IMG/VR virus record: IMGVR_UViG_3300037486_000490
Coordinates: 28,501 to 92,500 of that record
Length of the DNA stretch: 64,000 nt
Source: a virus
Direction: 5' to 3' (one strand)
Shown one piece after another: positions 27,253 to 58,715 of this stretch (positions are counted from its first letter, which is position 1; each line of letters begins with the position of its first letter). The notes under the pieces are model-generated. The model had not been told where the DNA came from. It saw only the letters and a list, made by a program, of their open reading frames with translations, and ran no database searches. The translations under genes were made by a program, and so were the position numbers.

Positions 27253-28449
27253 ATGCCCAGCATTAAAGTCAGAAAGTATGGAAACTCGGTTTACGTGATC
27301 TATGTTCATCGTAACCAAAAACTGAAAGTTTACACCGGGGTAAAGGTCGATGACCTGCATTGGAACCTGTCTGTCCCGAGGAAGAGCTGTCCCAACTACG
27401 ACAATGTGCTTGCCCAAATTAACCAGATGGAAACACGCCTTCTGAACGCTTCCATGAAGGTACGTACGATGGGTATAGACCCGACAGTTGACAGGGTGAG
27501 GATGGAGCTTAAAGCACAGGAGGTGGTAAAGGAAGCGGAGAAACCCTTCTGGGAAATATACAACACCTATCTCCTTACGCGCACCTTCAAACCTCCGACA
27601 CGCCAAAAGGTGGAGATCCATAAGAAGATGCTGCAGTTCTTCTGCACCTGGTCGGGCTATGAGTTCGATATAAAGACCTGGGACAAGCTCGCCTTTGGCA
27701 GGTTGATACAATACCTATTGTTCACACAGAAGATGGCAGACTCAACTATAGACCGGTTGGTAAGAGGTGTGAAAGCTTTTCTCCGGTTTGCTTATCCTAC
27801 GGTTGACCTGTCGTGGATGAAGTACAAACTCCTGAGTACTGAAGAGACCGTGGTGGCACTTTCGGATGGGGAGCTTAAGTATCTTATCGACGCTGACCTC
27901 GGCGGTTACCTGGAGAAGACCAGGGACCTATTCGTGTTCCTCGCCACTACCGGTATGCGCTTTTCAGATAGCCAGCTGTTCAATCCGACCTGGGTAACCG
28001 AGGAACAGATACTGGAATTCAACCAGCATAAGACCGGCGGGAAAGCTTATCCTCCCTTATACGAGGTATCCCGCAGGATCCTCTCCAAGTACAACGGTAT
28101 ACCTCCCCAGATCTCCAACCAGAAGTTCAATGATTACCTGAAAGTCCTGTTTGAGGAGCTTAAGTTCTCCAGATCCATTACCTCTAACATCGTCCGCAAT
28201 AAGGTTGTATTCACCTCAGTTGCCCCATTAAGTGAGGTAATCTCCTCACATACAGCGCGTCGTACATTTATTTCTCTCTGCCTGTCCCATGGAATACCGA
28301 TCCAGGATGTGATGAAAATGTCTGGTCACGCCGATTATAAGTCCATGAGACCCTATATCCGAGTCACCCGTCAGCACCTTCGTACAGTAGCCGATAGGTG
28401 GAATCCCGGGGCAACTGTAGAAGGATCAGGAAGTTCGGGAGGTTTGTAA
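27253..28449 (+). CDS. int: Tyrosine integrase
   Basis: 398 residues. An arm-binding N-terminal domain (MPSIKVRKYGNSVYVIYVHR) and SAM-like core (residues about 95-185) precede the catalytic domain: Arg in TGMRFSD (about 234), Lys in QHKTGG (about 260), HTARR (about 333), GH (about 358) and the nucleophile Tyr in RPYIRVT (about 367). All key residues are present. The adjacent tRNA-derived site and repeats fit site-specific integration. It is transcribed away from the late block. Integrases are rare in crAss-like phages, common in temperate Bacteroidetes elements. Confidence 0.92.
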   Translation: MPSIKVRKYGNSVYVIYVHRNQKLKVYTGVKVDDLHWNLSVPRKSCPNYDNVLAQINQMETRLLNASMKVRTMGIDPTVDRVRMELKAQEVVKEAEKPFWEIYNTYLLTRTFKPPTRQKVEIHKKMLQFFCTWSGYEFDIKTWDKLAFGRLIQYLLFTQKMADSTIDRLVRGVKAFLRFAYPTVDLSWMKYKLLSTEETVVALSDGELKYLIDADLGGYLEKTRDLFVFLATTGMRFSDSQLFNPTWVTEEQILEFNQHKTGGKAYPPLYEVSRRILSKYNGIPPQISNQKFNDYLKVLFEELKFSRSITSNIVRNKVVFTSVAPLSEVISSHTARRTFISLCLSHGIPIQDVMKMSGHADYKSMRPYIRVTRQHLRTVADRWNPGATVEGSGSSGGL

Positions 28450-28574: not shown

Positions 28575-29015
28575 CTAATCCTCCTCGTCCTCCTCAAAAT
28601 CTTCTTCATCATCATCATCGAAAGGTTCCTCAGGCTCACATCCGGGTATAGTATCCAGGCGGGACAAGTCTATATATCGGGGATTGGTAATCTGGAATCC
28701 GCCGGATATCTCATCGATTTTCATCATCGTTGAGAGTATGGTGATAGGGGAGAAGATGATTATGGGAAAGGTGAGCAGAGTACGGTTCTTATCTCTTATT
28801 ACGCTATAGATGGCATCTTCCTTAATGAATGGGGCTGGAAAGTAGGGTAAGGAAGAGGATACCCAGTCCAGGATAGAATCGTCAGGTCTGCCATTACGCA
28901 TCAGCTGATCCTTGATAGTCTTACCCATATTACGAGAAACCTGGATAGCTATCGTAAAGTTCTTACGATTGAGGATATCCTGCGCATTCGCCATCACAAT
29001 CTTACTTGCTCGCAT
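28575..29015 (-). CDS. Unrecognised protein with strongly acidic tail
   Basis: 146 residues (an internal start at 28994 is possible). The body is beta/alpha mixed with a hydrophobic stretch (TLLTFPIIIFSPITI), and the last 18 residues are almost all Asp and Glu. Its start overlaps the end of the winged-helix gene by 14 bases, so the two are coupled. Acidic tails often mimic DNA or bind basic proteins; no family recognised. Confidence 0.65.
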   Translation of the reverse strand: MRASKIVMANAQDILNRKNFTIAIQVSRNMGKTIKDQLMRNGRPDDSILDWVSSSLPYFPAPFIKEDAIYSVIRDKNRTLLTFPIIIFSPITILSTMMKIDEISGGFQITNPRYIDLSRLDTIPGCEPEEPFDDDDEEDFEEDEED

Positions 29016-31420: not shown

Positions 31421-31488
31421 ACCCTCTTAGTTTAATGGTAGAATCCCGGTTTAGCTGGGAGATGCGAGTCCGACTCTCGCAGAGGGTT
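31421..31488 (+). tRNA. tRNA-like gene, short, best-fit anticodon UUA
   Basis: Acceptor ACCCTCT / AGAGGGT and T-arm GCGAG-TCCGACT-CTCGC are good. The middle can fold as TCCCG-GTTTAGC-TGGGA, whose loop places TTA at the anticodon, which would read UAA. Only about 68 bases long, with a weak D-stem and a three-base variable region, so it may be degenerate or unusual. Amino acid identity not assigned. Confidence 0.55.
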
Positions 31489-31506
31489 CTAACTAAATCA
31501 ACAAAA

Positions 31507-32043
31507 ATGCAAATTTTACTTGACATGGATGGAGTCCTCTCGGACTTTACATCCGGCGCACTTGATGCGCTGAATAAGAAATACAACAAGCGCCATACAA
31601 TTGTCTCCTACGCTGCTGATTATGGCAAGTGGGACATAGCATCGCTATACGGTATAACGGACAAAGAGTTATGGTCAGTTATTAAACAGACCGAGGGGTT
31701 CTGGATGAGCTTAAAGCCACTTCCATGGTTCAGGGAGCTCTACGCTGCTCTTGCAGAGAGGGGAGAGGTGACCATACTCACTACCCCGTCCTGGGATCCT
31801 GATTGTGCTAAACAGAAGCTCCAGTGGTTGAAGATGTATCTGGGAGTGAACTCTGAGGCGGTGATGATGGGTGCTCGCAAGGAGCTACTGGCTGGTAATG
31901 GGTTACTGATAGATGACAGCGAGGCTAACTTCAAAAGGTTCATCATTGCCGGTGGTGATGCGGTGTTGGTACCGAGCAACTGGAACACGATAGAGATAAG
32001 TTTCCTTGATGTGTGGAACGAGATTGAAAGGGTGATGGGATGA
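31507..32043 (+). CDS. 5'(3')-deoxyribonucleotidase-like HAD phosphatase
   Basis: 178 residues from the ATG at 31507; a longer frame would run through the tRNA. The HAD motifs are DMDGVLSDF (nucleophile Asp at about 6), TILTTPSWDPD (motif II Thr) and LLIDDSEANF (motif IV Asp pair), as in the phage NT5C family. It removes phosphate from dNMPs, helping balance nucleotide pools. It overlaps the next gene by 4 bases. Confidence 0.8.
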   Translation: MQILLDMDGVLSDFTSGALDALNKKYNKRHTIVSYAADYGKWDIASLYGITDKELWSVIKQTEGFWMSLKPLPWFRELYAALAERGEVTILTTPSWDPDCAKQKLQWLKMYLGVNSEAVMMGARKELLAGNGLLIDDSEANFKRFIIAGGDAVLVPSNWNTIEISFLDVWNEIERVMG

Positions 32044-54741: not shown

Positions 54742-54768
54742 GGGAGAGGGATGATACCCTCTCCCTTT
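54742..54768 (+). terminator. Rho-independent terminator after rIIB-like gene
   Basis: GGGAGAGGG / CCCTCTCCC, six-base loop, then TTTAATT. It lies between the rIIB-like stop and the kinase ATG at 54781. Confidence 0.88.
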
Positions 54769-54780
54769 AATTATTTCAGT

Positions 54781-55470
54781 ATGATAATAGGATTTAGCAG
54801 TCACCAGAGGAGCGGCAAGGACTCGGCAGGTAAAATGCTGACAGATCTTGCACAGAAAGACGGAATTGAGTTTACGAATAAGAAGTTTGCAGGATACCTG
54901 AAGACCATAACAGCAATGCTTACAGGAATACCTGAAGCGCTTCTTGAAGATGATGACATGAAGAGATCATTCCTTCCAGCCGAATGGGATGATGTAAATC
55001 TAATAAGGCTGGTAGGGAATGTTATAGATGCAAAGATGACCGTCCGTGAGTTCATGCAGAAGATCGGTACAGACGCCATCAGGAACAATCTTCATCCAAA
55101 TACATGGGTGAATGCACTCATGAAGGACTATGTTCCGAAGTTGTATTCAGAACCAGTTCCCAATGACAATGATTGGAACATGCGTATTGTACACCACTCT
55201 TCAAACTGGATCATCACCGATGTCAGGTTCCCAAACGAATTTGACGCTATACGTGCAAGAGGTGGCATACTTATACGTATAAACCGTGGTGGACCACCTC
55301 AAGACATCCACATGTCCGAGATAGCTCTTGACCTGGTGAAGAACTGGGACTATATCATTGATAATAACGGCACCTTGGAAGAATTACAAACAAAACTAAA
55401 ACACATATGGGACGAAATAAGAGACAACATGACGATTACGTCAGACAAAATATCTCAGTTGACCAGGTAA
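54781..55470 (+). CDS. Deoxynucleoside monophosphate kinase
   Basis: 229 residues from the ATG at 54781; an upstream in-frame start lies inside the terminator. P-loop IGFSSHQRSGKDSAG at residues 3-17; FMQKIGTDAIRNNLHPNTWVNAL and ITDVRFPNEFD match T4-type dNMP kinases. It supplies dNDPs for DNA synthesis. It overlaps the next gene by 64 bases. Confidence 0.85.
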   Translation: MIIGFSSHQRSGKDSAGKMLTDLAQKDGIEFTNKKFAGYLKTITAMLTGIPEALLEDDDMKRSFLPAEWDDVNLIRLVGNVIDAKMTVREFMQKIGTDAIRNNLHPNTWVNALMKDYVPKLYSEPVPNDNDWNMRIVHHSSNWIITDVRFPNEFDAIRARGGILIRINRGGPPQDIHMSEIALDLVKNWDYIIDNNGTLEELQTKLKHIWDEIRDNMTITSDKISQLTR

Positions 55471-55812: not shown

Positions 55813-56820
55813 ATGGAAAACTACTATCTTAATCCGGCTATCAGCAACTCATCTTTGAGTTACATAGACCCGGAGACCGGTGGATGCCCGGAGAAATTTA
55901 AAGCATACATAGACGGCATACTTGATGATGAAAAGAGTCCGTCACTTGAGAAAGGCGACTTTATACATAAGTACATACTCACTCCTGATGAGTTCTCAGT
56001 GCTGACATGCGACATGCCCTCGCCGGCTATCCGCGATATCGTGAAGGGTGTATTTAGCATGGCTGCATTTAAGAAAAGTGCGGAAGAACAGGCAGTACTC
56101 GTTTTTGATCAGTACAAAGAGCAGATTATGGCTAAAATTGTTGAATGTGGATATCAAACTAACTGGAAAGACGCCACCAGGCTGAACAAAGTCATTGAGA
56201 TGGGTACTCCCTACTTCGATGCCCTGAAGGTAGCCGGTGACCGAACGATTATAGATGCTGAGCTGTACGAAACAGTGAAGAAATGCGCAGCCAGCGTAGA
56301 GCGTAATGATGCAGCCAAGCTCCTTCTGGTGAACTCACCCGGGCAGGATGTGTACAACGAGGAAGAAATATACTGGACAGAGGAATGGGGCGGGCTTAAG
56401 CTCAGCTTCAAAGCCAAGATAGACAGGCTCGTGGTGGATCACAAGGCAAAGACGTTCTCCATCGTGGACTTTAAGACAACGAGTAAATTCATTGTCAACT
56501 TCCCGGAGAGTGTTGAATATTACCATTACTACCGCCAACTTTCGTTCTATGACCATGCAGTGAAGATCTGGCTGGAAAAGAAAGGGTTTAGCAACTACCA
56601 GGCAGACGATCATTACCTGGTAGCAGTAGAGACCAAGGGATACAATTTATGCAGGGTTTATATCATTAGTGAACCGTATCTGCGTAAGGGTAGGGTGGAG
56701 ACAGCGAATCTGTTGAACAGGATCGTATATCACTTTTCTACAGCTGATTGGGTGAATCCTAAAGAAGAGCAGGAGACAGTAAATAAGACATATATTCTTT
56801 TGCCAAAAGAATACATTTAG
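55813..56820 (+). CDS. PD-(D/E)XK exonuclease (RecB/Cas4/RecE-like)
   Basis: 335 residues. KGDFIHKYIL near 54, then KAKIDRLVVD (about 202), DFKTTSKF (about 218) and YRQLSFYDHAV (about 240) give the motif order of this nuclease fold (GxxxH, Asp, DxK, QxxxY). Probably a 5'-3' exonuclease for recombination or DNA end processing. It follows the DnaA-like gene by one base. Confidence 0.85.
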   Translation: MENYYLNPAISNSSLSYIDPETGGCPEKFKAYIDGILDDEKSPSLEKGDFIHKYILTPDEFSVLTCDMPSPAIRDIVKGVFSMAAFKKSAEEQAVLVFDQYKEQIMAKIVECGYQTNWKDATRLNKVIEMGTPYFDALKVAGDRTIIDAELYETVKKCAASVERNDAAKLLLVNSPGQDVYNEEEIYWTEEWGGLKLSFKAKIDRLVVDHKAKTFSIVDFKTTSKFIVNFPESVEYYHYYRQLSFYDHAVKIWLEKKGFSNYQADDHYLVAVETKGYNLCRVYIISEPYLRKGRVETANLLNRIVYHFSTADWVNPKEEQETVNKTYILLPKEYI

Positions 56821-56918: not shown

Positions 56919-57086
56919 ATGCCTTATTATTCACCTGTTTGTCGTGCTTGTAACTATACAAGCAATGTGATTTTTCAATCACAGGGGAAGTGCGAACGAT
57001 GTGGAGAACCTCTTCCTATAATACCTTCAGTAAAAACTAATGGATCTCGAAAAAGTAAAACACCAGATAAGGAAAGAAGACTCTAA
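56919..57086 (+). CDS. Zinc-ribbon small protein
   Basis: 55 residues, ATG at 56919 to TAA at 57086. CRAC and CERC 16 residues apart form a classic zinc ribbon. Its end overlaps the UNG-like gene start by 47 bases in another frame. Could regulate transcription or pair with the UNG-like protein. Confidence 0.6.
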   Translation: MPYYSPVCRACNYTSNVIFQSQGKCERCGEPLPIIPSVKTNGSRKSKTPDKERRL

Positions 57087-58092
57087 GGGGAATTATATTC
57101 GCTTAGACCCTCAGACCTTAAACGTCCTGCTAAGGGATAACAGCACAAAAGAACGTAATATTGGATCTATCAAAGAGAACGACGGTAAACTTGTTTACCA
57201 TAAACACGAAGAAGAAACACAGATCCACCGTAAATCAAAATCTTGGTCGATCAACCGCAATGTACTGGAAGCAGTCGATGTGATTGAGTACGAAACAGAC
57301 CGGGGAATATACCGGATAAACTCTCAGAAAGCCCGTTCACTCGGGTTTTCTTATAAATGGGATAACAAGTCCTTTGTGGACAAGAAGTGTTATGTGCCCA
57401 TTAAACTCTGGGATACAGAGTGGAATAATCCTACTATCGGATCTCTTGTAAGCAGGTTCGGCTATGAATGGTTCTCTGAATTAGAGCTATTGCTGTACGA
57501 GGATTATGTTATCCAATTAGGTAACCATCTCGGTAAGAACTATGCTTCTTATCCCATGTATCCCGCAAAAGAGAACATCTTTGCACCCTTCAAGCTTACA
57601 TCCTATATGGATGTTAAGGTTGTCATGGTAGCCCCTTACGCTTTTCCCTTTAAAGGTTCTAACGGACTTGCCTTTGGGATCGAGGGAACCGGTTCTGTTC
57701 CTATGGTTACTACCCAGTTGCTTAAGGAAATAGAATGGGATATCTACCAGGGATGCCTGATGCTTTCTTTTGATACTACGATGCGATCATACGCCGATCA
57801 AGGCGTGTTACTCCTTAACTACATTGCAACTTCCAGCAGTATACGCCCAAGCGTAAACATAGGCTGGGAAAGATTTACCGGCGATGTTATATCGTTGTTG
57901 AACGAAAGAAAAGAAAATATAGTTTTCATGTTATACGGTGCTGCCGCTGAGCTGCAATCATTGGTCAGCAAGACCAAGCATATGGTAATAGCTAATGCCA
58001 TGCCATATACTCCGGAGTATGTACGTGATAACTATTTCAGTAAATGCAACAACTACTTGGTATCAAACAAAATCCAATCAGTCAATTGGTAA
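57040..58092 (+). CDS. Uracil-DNA-glycosylase-fold protein lacking catalytic residues
   Basis: 350 residues. Residues about 140-350 follow UNG throughout: YPMYPAKENIFAPFKLTSYMDVKVV, GLAFGI (uracil-stacking Phe at 212), DQGVLLLN (Asn-260, uracil recognition), NIGWERFTGDVI, FMLYG and CNNYL. Yet the GQDPYH motif reads MVAPYAFPF (Asp replaced by Ala-198) and HPSP reads NAMP (319-322). So uracil-pocket residues remain while the catalytic Asp and His are gone. The first 140 residues are an unrecognised, charged extension. Probably a DNA- or base-binding protein, not a repair enzyme. Confidence 0.75.
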   Translation: MDLEKVKHQIRKEDSKGNYIRLDPQTLNVLLRDNSTKERNIGSIKENDGKLVYHKHEEETQIHRKSKSWSINRNVLEAVDVIEYETDRGIYRINSQKARSLGFSYKWDNKSFVDKKCYVPIKLWDTEWNNPTIGSLVSRFGYEWFSELELLLYEDYVIQLGNHLGKNYASYPMYPAKENIFAPFKLTSYMDVKVVMVAPYAFPFKGSNGLAFGIEGTGSVPMVTTQLLKEIEWDIYQGCLMLSFDTTMRSYADQGVLLLNYIATSSSIRPSVNIGWERFTGDVISLLNERKENIVFMLYGAAAELQSLVSKTKHMVIANAMPYTPEYVRDNYFSKCNNYLVSNKIQSVNW

Positions 58093-58135: not shown

Positions 58136-58169
58136 TTTGCTTGTATATACGAAATATAATGTATATTTG
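58136..58169 (+). promoter_or_regulatory. Promoter of Lrp-type regulator gene
   Basis: TATATTTG at 58162-58169 matches the -7 box; TTG at 58141 (18-base spacer) or TTTG at 58136 (22-base spacer) can serve as -33. The ATG of the regulator is at 58203. Confidence 0.7.
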
Positions 58170-58202
58170 CAGAGCATAATACCTACTTATAAGTATAGAA
58201 AA

Positions 58203-58715
58203 ATGAAAAAACGCGACATCGATGCAAAAGACATCGAAATTCTAAACATCCTCAAAGAAGATGCCAATGTCACAAACAAGGATCTCGCGCAAAAGTTACA
58301 CCTTTCCGAGGGACCTACACTTGTTCGCGTGCAGAACCTTTTTAAGAAGGGTGTGATTAAACGGTACGTAGCCGAACCCAATTACGGATACTTCGGATAT
58401 ACCTATGAGGTTGCTACACTGGTTAGAATATTCAAAGAATTTTCTGGCGAGTTCGTCAACCGGGTACTGAAATATCCAAACGTAAGAAGATGCATTCGGA
58501 TAGAATCTTACCAGGATAGCTTGAAGCCACTAACTGCAACTGAGGACTTCATGATCGTTAGTTTAAACAAGAGCCCTGAGCAGTACAAGCAGATCACGGA
58601 TGAACTGGGCTTACCTATCAGGGGCAAGTCATTTGTGATACAATGGGACATTTTGATTGTTGAGAAGGAGTTTAAAAACAGTGGTATTGAGTTCACTAAA
58701 ACAGACATCAGATAG
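58203..58715 (+). CDS. Lrp/AsnC-type transcriptional regulator
   Basis: 170 residues from the ATG at 58203. DAKDIEILNILKEDANVTNKDLAQKLHLSEGPTLVRVQ is the typical AsnC helix-turn-helix, followed by a beta-rich effector part that is shorter than in host Lrp. It has its own promoter and a strong terminator. In a phage it may sense metabolic state or control late genes; target unknown. Confidence 0.85.
   Translation: MKKRDIDAKDIEILNILKEDANVTNKDLAQKLHLSEGPTLVRVQNLFKKGVIKRYVAEPNYGYFGYTYEVATLVRIFKEFSGEFVNRVLKYPNVRRCIRIESYQDSLKPLTATEDFMIVSLNKSPEQYKQITDELGLPIRGKSFVIQWDILIVEKEFKNSGIEFTKTDIR

Follow-up and report, generated by a model that had tools for sequence, protein, structure and literature searches.

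The stretch of DNA analysed here (the window, 64,000 nucleotides in length) comprises bases 28501-92500 of a 92.5-kb crAss-like phage record. The first 126 bases of the record are repeated near its end, so it looks like a near-complete genome, and gene absences within it therefore carry some weight. Sequence relatedness of its capsid, portal and terminase proteins places the phage among the crAss-like phages (Crassvirales): its major capsid protein shares 33-34% identity with those of many crAss-like phages at 96-99% coverage, and the portal and terminase match phage families (PHROG). The gene of interest encodes a protein with the fold of uracil-DNA glycosylase (UNG) in which both canonical catalytic residues are lost, and we refer to this protein as pseudo-UNG. 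Its parts, and the neighbouring and distant genes that enter the interpretation, are as follows.

31435..32043, + strand: NT5C-family 5'(3')-deoxyribonucleotidase (PF06941, Pfam match) with an intact DMDGV motif, found in both phages that carry pseudo-UNG
54751..55470, + strand: deoxynucleoside monophosphate (dNMP) kinase (profile matches)
55813..56820, + strand: PD-(D/E)XK exonuclease, upstream neighbour of pseudo-UNG (profile matches)
56919..57086, + strand: CxxC...CxxC (zinc-ribbon-like) open reading frame of 55 amino acids, overlapping the start of pseudo-UNG (counterpart in the sister phage, L002:5883-6095)
57040..58092, + strand: pseudo-UNG gene, encoding an N-terminal domain and a UNG-fold domain (open reading frame of 350 amino acids with an ATG start)
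57040..57459, + strand: N-terminal domain, residues 1-140, basic (pI 9.3), alpha/beta (AlphaFold2, and homologues fused to intact UNGs in L105, L107, L055, L060 and L114-L121)
57460..58089, + strand: UNG-fold domain, residues 141-350, acidic (pI 5.2) (phmmer, Foldseek, charge)
57619..57678, + strand: motif-1 loop VVMVAPYAFPFKGSNGLAFG, residues 194-213, catalytic Asp lost and Phe212 kept (alignment)
57808..57819, + strand: LLLN, residues 257-260, base-binding Asn260 kept (alignment)
57988..58038, + strand: motif-2 and Leu loop IANAMPYTPEYVRDNYF, residues 317-333, catalytic His lost, shortened (alignment)

Upstream of pseudo-UNG lie genes for helicases, DnaB, a Sak4-like ATPase, a primase, RusA and RIIA/RIIB-like proteins, as well as the dNMP kinase and the exonuclease. 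Downstream it is adjoined by an Lrp/AsnC-type winged-helix regulator (58137-58715) that is ~39% identical in the sister phage described below, unlike its neighbours. An Rfam scan of the surroundings of the gene gave no matches. Further away, the window encodes a tyrosine integrase (27253-28449) whose sister copy is 80% identical, and a crAss-like phage with an integrase could possibly have a temperate life style. At 28575-29015 lies the gene for a small protein whose C-terminal tail (EEPFDDDDEEDFEEDEED) is strongly acidic, and it too has a counterpart in the sister.

Fold and active-site loops of pseudo-UNG

The likeness of pseudo-UNG to UNG is far above chance. Family-1 UNGs of the PDB match residues 161-350 at E 2.3e-23 or weaker (phmmer), and residues 142-345 are matched by PHROG 12143 (E 5e-27), a family carrying no function name. 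The AlphaFold2 model, built on an alignment of 57 sequences, has a mean pLDDT of 89.7 and a pTM of 0.84. Compared with UNG crystal structures using Foldseek it gives E 8.8e-19 (TM 0.85), with TM values of 0.79-0.87 normalised by target over ~210-220 residues. An earlier reading made from the DNA letters (the first-pass annotation) had proposed similarity to UNG over about 200 residues and had suggested structure prediction as a check; both the searches and the structural comparison (TM 0.85-0.87) bear this out, the predicted fold being UNG-like. The Pfam UDG model (PF03167) stays below threshold on this open reading frame because the active-site motifs have changed so far. In a whole-genome scan at E<=1, the same model found nothing in the window phage (G000) or in its sister (G001), while it did match in G002 and three annotated phages. 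The scan thus gave no sign of a second, active UNG elsewhere in the genome of either phage.

GLAF (residues 209-212), LLLN (257-260) and GWERFT (275-280) all lie where the first-pass annotation had located them, as do both replaced motifs, with MVAPYAFPF (196-204) in the place of the GQDPYH loop and NAMP (319-322) in the place of HPSP. Motif 1, GQDPY(H/P) with the catalytic Asp, and motif 2, HP(S/A) with the catalytic His, are absent from both known orthologues, which read APYAF and AMPYTP in the window phage and APYVF and GALYTP in its sister. The reported loss of the two catalytic residues is thus confirmed, with the Asp and His columns changed in both proteins. In an ungapped alignment with the nearest relatives, G62 corresponds to A198, Q63 to P199, D64 to Y200, P65 to A201, Y66 to F202 and H187 to M321, whereas a broader-profile alignment instead retains P199-Y200 as 'PY'. 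The residue standing in for Asp64 is therefore ambiguous between alignments, and is an acid in neither.

The proposal that pseudo-UNG keeps the uracil pocket holds in part. The equivalents of the uracil-binding residues Phe77 and Asn123 are retained as Phe212 and Asn260, but motif 1 and the Pro, Gly-Ser and Leu loops have been replaced. Based on alignments, the Pro loop has gone from PPSL to P-M/Q-V/A-T, the Gly-Ser loop from WGK to YGA/YGF, and the Leu-intercalation loop from HPSPFSAHKGFFGCKHF to the shortened MPYTPEYVRDNYF. The DNA-facing loops carry a net charge of -1/-3 in the altered pair, where the closest active relatives (the intact fusions described below) have +4 to +6, and the pI of the UNG domain is 5.2 compared to 8.7-9.2. 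The argument from loop charge is suggestive and not decisive, because a few UNGs with intact catalytic residues reach -2.

The sister orthologue and relatives with intact catalytic residues

The sole orthologue found, L002:6001-7053, lies on the 92-kb phage contig IMGVR_UViG_3300002220_000740 (G001) and is 62% identical end to end. The two phages have most replication and virion genes in common, with differences among structural proteins. The corresponding loops of the sister protein are VAPYVFPTKGSNGLAFG and NNGALYTP, and an alignment of homologues, also suggested at first pass, shows that both losses are common to the pair. These two sequences make up the whole altered group: no further altered orthologues came from searching viral contigs with the full-length protein, the UNG part alone, the exonuclease, RIIB and the N-domain as queries, nor from two scans of bacterial genomes.

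The altered segment around motif 1 (residues 187-243) is 79% identical between the orthologues, compared to 61% for the whole UNG domain, and 14 of the 16 residues at positions 198-213 are the same (loop APYxFPxKGSNGLAFG). At the position of the motif-2 His the two differ, with M321 in the window phage and Ala in the sister. Silent sites are saturated (pS 0.81) and pN is 0.23, which together with the above-average conservation of the loop region indicates that the altered site is under purifying selection, without decay. Sequencing error or a pseudogene is excluded by the same losses in the sister and by the codon comparison. In the UNG tree the pair forms one 100/100 clade; its stem measures 1.36 against 0.24 for the tips, and this combination of a long stem and short tips suggests that rapid change gave way to renewed constraint.

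The first-pass annotation had left the N-terminal 140 residues as an unexplained charged extension. They form a folded domain and not a charged tail alone, with a mostly confident alpha/beta fold in the full-length model (pLDDT 74.6 when modelled alone from two sequences), and conserved fusions now explain them in part. A two-sequence profile run against the open frames of fetched loci detected the domain in L105 and L107 (E ~1e-22) and in L055 and L060 (E ~1e-16), in each case directly fused to UNG, and an additional scan found the same fusion in L119, L120 and L121. This gives seven fusion loci (L105/L114, L107/L115, L055/L118, L060/L117, L119, L120 and L121), with intact catalytic residues in all seven fusion contigs (GQDPYHDGSAHGLAF and HP). 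The fusion UNGs, which are from uncultured phages, have the same two domains in the same order as pseudo-UNG at ~30-33% identity, and differ from it in their intact catalytic residues and basic UNG domain (pI 8.7-9.2). As seven related loci have the fusion together with intact catalytic residues, the simplest and most likely history is one in which the fusion preceded the loss of catalysis. The UNG tree does not settle whether every N-domain fusion belongs to one clade.

Homologues fused to intact UNGs exclude the view of the N-terminal domain as a chance extension. It has no sequence family match in Pfam, PHROGs or the PDB, and a structure search in BFVD led to unnamed stand-alone phage proteins. 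Foldseek matches in the PDB were all weak and of low TM; some were to PD-(D/E)XK nucleases (PvuII, E 0.015), and this assignment was not accepted.

Parts of the gene neighbourhood recur around the intact fusions. Where checked, in L105, L055 and L060, the exonuclease is again upstream of the fused UNG; the L105 exonuclease is 37% identical to that of the window, and L060 also has the RIIB-like neighbour. Several annotated Crassvirales genomes likewise have a UDG near a PD-(D/E)XK exonuclease. The CxxC mini-protein, for which no equivalent was found near the intact fused UNGs, is a possible partner of pseudo-UNG.

Within a sample of 92 aligned phage and database UNGs, retrieved by two fetch patterns of which one covered motif 1, the Asp column of motif 1 holds D in 88 and E in two, with Y only in the altered pair among the matches listed; these counts describe the sample and not all phages. 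Also among the matches listed, the His column of motif 2 is H in 89 of the 90 other UNGs, the Asn123 column is N in 92 of 92, and the Phe77 column is F in 91 of 92. The two sequences with Glu are from phages phi14:2 (GKEPY) and FPSV-S29 (GEEPY).

The UDG of Cellulophaga phage phi14:2, a cultured crAss-like phage (L012:7956-8666; NC_021806.1 27660-28370), reads GKEPY for GQDPY, DP for HP and Tyr for Phe77, and is annotated as an ordinary uracil-DNA glycosylase. By alignment, this UDG seems to have lost the canonical catalytic residues independently. Directly upstream (L012:2321-7965) are GGCT, glutaminyl-transferase, COOH.NH2 ligase, aminotransferase and amidoligase genes, and in cr108_1, too, a glutamine amidotransferase is encoded close to the UDG. 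In Flavobacterium phage FPSV-S29 (L017:986-1729) GEEPY replaces GQDPY and HPA is kept; its near relative Fpv1 retains GQDPY, and ~12 other FPSV records with the same match statistics may share the FPSV-S29 change.

Possible roles of the altered protein

We give about an even chance to the reading in which pseudo-UNG is a pseudoenzyme, a fused crAss-like UNG that lost excision once, was re-fixed by selection and is now a non-catalytic accessory of replication or recombination. The ancestral crAss-like UNG would most likely have been fused already to the small N-terminal domain, and the chemistry of uracil excision would have been lost once, in the common ancestor of this phage and its sister, with the altered protein then re-fixed by selection. 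The UNG fold would then be a scaffold that binds either a partner protein or, in its remodelled pocket, a ligand, and contact with nucleic acid or a partner may come from the basic N-terminal domain. Speaking for a scaffold, which we favour, are the setting of the gene, surrounded by those for helicase, primase, RusA, dNMP kinase and exonuclease, and the loss of the DNA-gripping loops and their charge. Support for a non-catalytic replication role comes from two precedents: poxvirus D4 is a component of a processive polymerase complex (PMC4450493), and the MHV68 vUNG does not need its catalytic residues to bind the polymerase and processivity factor of the virus (PMC10312458). Likeness to these viral UNGs with a replication role is by gene neighbourhood, and D4 and vUNG keep their catalytic residues whereas pseudo-UNG does not (PMC4450493, PMC10312458). 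The retention of Phe212 and Asn260 counts against a pure scaffold, in which base contacts would be unneeded. Further, UDG families that lack the motif-1 Asp (4, 5 and 6) or the motif-2 His (2 and 6) are still enzymes (PMC5387724), so that from missing catalytic residues we can only infer missing activity.

The first-pass annotation had instead raised the idea of a base reader or DNA clamp. The rewritten loops and lost positive charge (-1/-3 in the loops, pI 5.2) make such a classical role, played through the UNG cleft, less likely than a scaffold. A more specific form of the idea is that the phage's own DNA contains dU or a dU derivative and that the protein, by binding uracil or a modified pyrimidine there without cutting it out, blocks host UNG. 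We regard this as unlikely, if worth weighing. A catalytically inactive UNG serves as a uracil-DNA binding sensor (PMC7505663) and is, like pseudo-UNG, a UNG without catalytic function, which offers a precedent. Retention of the pocket residues Phe212 and Asn260 in the phage protein also speaks for the idea. Against it, the protein no longer has the Pro, Gly-Ser and Leu loops needed to flip a base, and its UNG domain is acidic. The sensor is engineered and reportedly retains its DNA-binding loops otherwise, whereas the natural pseudo-UNG has lost those as well.

Nucleotide metabolism gives a similarly divided picture for DNA containing dU. No dUTPase, ThyA or ThyX was detected in either phage with pseudo-UNG, and both encode the NT5C nucleotidase with an intact motif, a candidate for the dTMP phosphatase or dTTP pyrophosphatase of a dU-DNA phage. 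The dTMP phosphatase of PBS1, from the same Pfam family, removes thymidylate in a phage with dU-DNA (PMC12697855). NT5C was found in none of ten other crAss-like records (searched whole) or seven partial contigs with an intact fused UNG; however, it occurs in many phages without known dU-DNA. PF00303 and PF02511 are negative in L020 as well, a phage with an intact UNG, so a missing thymidylate synthase is nothing special. Neither phage has a PF00383 or PF22769 match for dCTP deaminase, although this enzyme is present in all three of the dU-DNA phages described (PMC12697855). A search for a Ugi-like inhibitor gave one small acidic open reading frame, acidic-tailed and with a counterpart in both early regions. 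We hold as rather improbable the combined scenario of a UNG turned into a non-cutting binder of uracil or a modified pyrimidine that shields dU-bearing phage DNA from host UNG, alongside a thymidylate-removing NT5C and loss of dUTPase. If true, it would mean survival with dU-DNA by means other than inhibition of the host enzyme.

Changed chemistry, in which the protein is still a glycosylase acting on another base with different residues, is quite improbable in our estimation. The active UDG families without motif-1 Asp or motif-2 His (PMC5387724) and the 14 of 16 conserved residues in the remodelled loop APYxFPxKGSNGLAFG are consistent with it, but the motif-2 His position differs even within the pair (M321 and Ala), the DNA-gripping loops are gone, and there is no fit to any known UDG-family motif. 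Equally improbable would be a role in sensing or binding a free base, nucleoside or nucleotide, through which the nearby dNMP kinase or the nucleotidase, for instance, might be regulated. Here the kept pocket Phe and Asn, the loss of DNA-contact loops and the acidity of the domain are in agreement, as are the close dNMP kinase gene and the presence of NT5C elsewhere in the genome; the UNG fold, however, binds free uracil weakly. Retention of the fold without catalytic residues might also suit a decoy, another role named at first pass. Its targets would be inhibitors that bind UNG, or defence proteins able to detect UNG or the processing of uracil. Ugi, SAUGI and p56 are acidic DNA mimics that bind the UNG DNA groove (PMC8150378), but the groove loops of pseudo-UNG have lost their positive charge and shape, and we consider a decoy highly improbable. 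The same very low probability attaches to a decaying, functionless remnant: the stem branch is long, but the full-length frame is intact in two phages, silent sites are saturated with pN at 0.23, and the motif-1 region is conserved above average.

Relation to known UNGs

Family-1 UNGs of E. coli, B. subtilis and S. aureus (1eug, 3zoq and 3wdf) share with pseudo-UNG the fold, at TM 0.83-0.86 along some 210 residues, as well as Phe77/Asn123 and GWExFT. Pseudo-UNG differs from them in that it lacks Asp64 and His187, has replaced Pro, Gly-Ser and Leu loops, is acidic, and has an extra N-terminal domain. UDGs of Crassvirales and related phages (cr111_1, cr108_1, cr85_1, phi14:2 and Fpv1) are from the same phage group and have a similar place in the replication module, near the exonuclease in several cases; most of these retain GQDPY and HP, and the N-terminal domain is absent from all that were read. 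The UNG fold and the UDGs of crAss-like phages were known already. What is new is a naturally occurring phage UNG that lacks both catalytic residues, maintained by selection as judged from codon comparison, and fused to an undescribed domain that is also found on intact UNGs. No description of a natural phage pseudo-UNG of this kind was found in the literature searched, which was covered in part.

With relatives that share its architecture and have intact residues, pseudo-UNG would make it possible to test directly what UNG does in DNA replication apart from catalysis. The altered loops of the phi14:2 and FPSV-S29 proteins suggest recurrent change, and these phages, with cultured hosts, may offer a bench system. 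In short, these two crAss-like phages have probably put an old enzyme shape to a job other than uracil removal.
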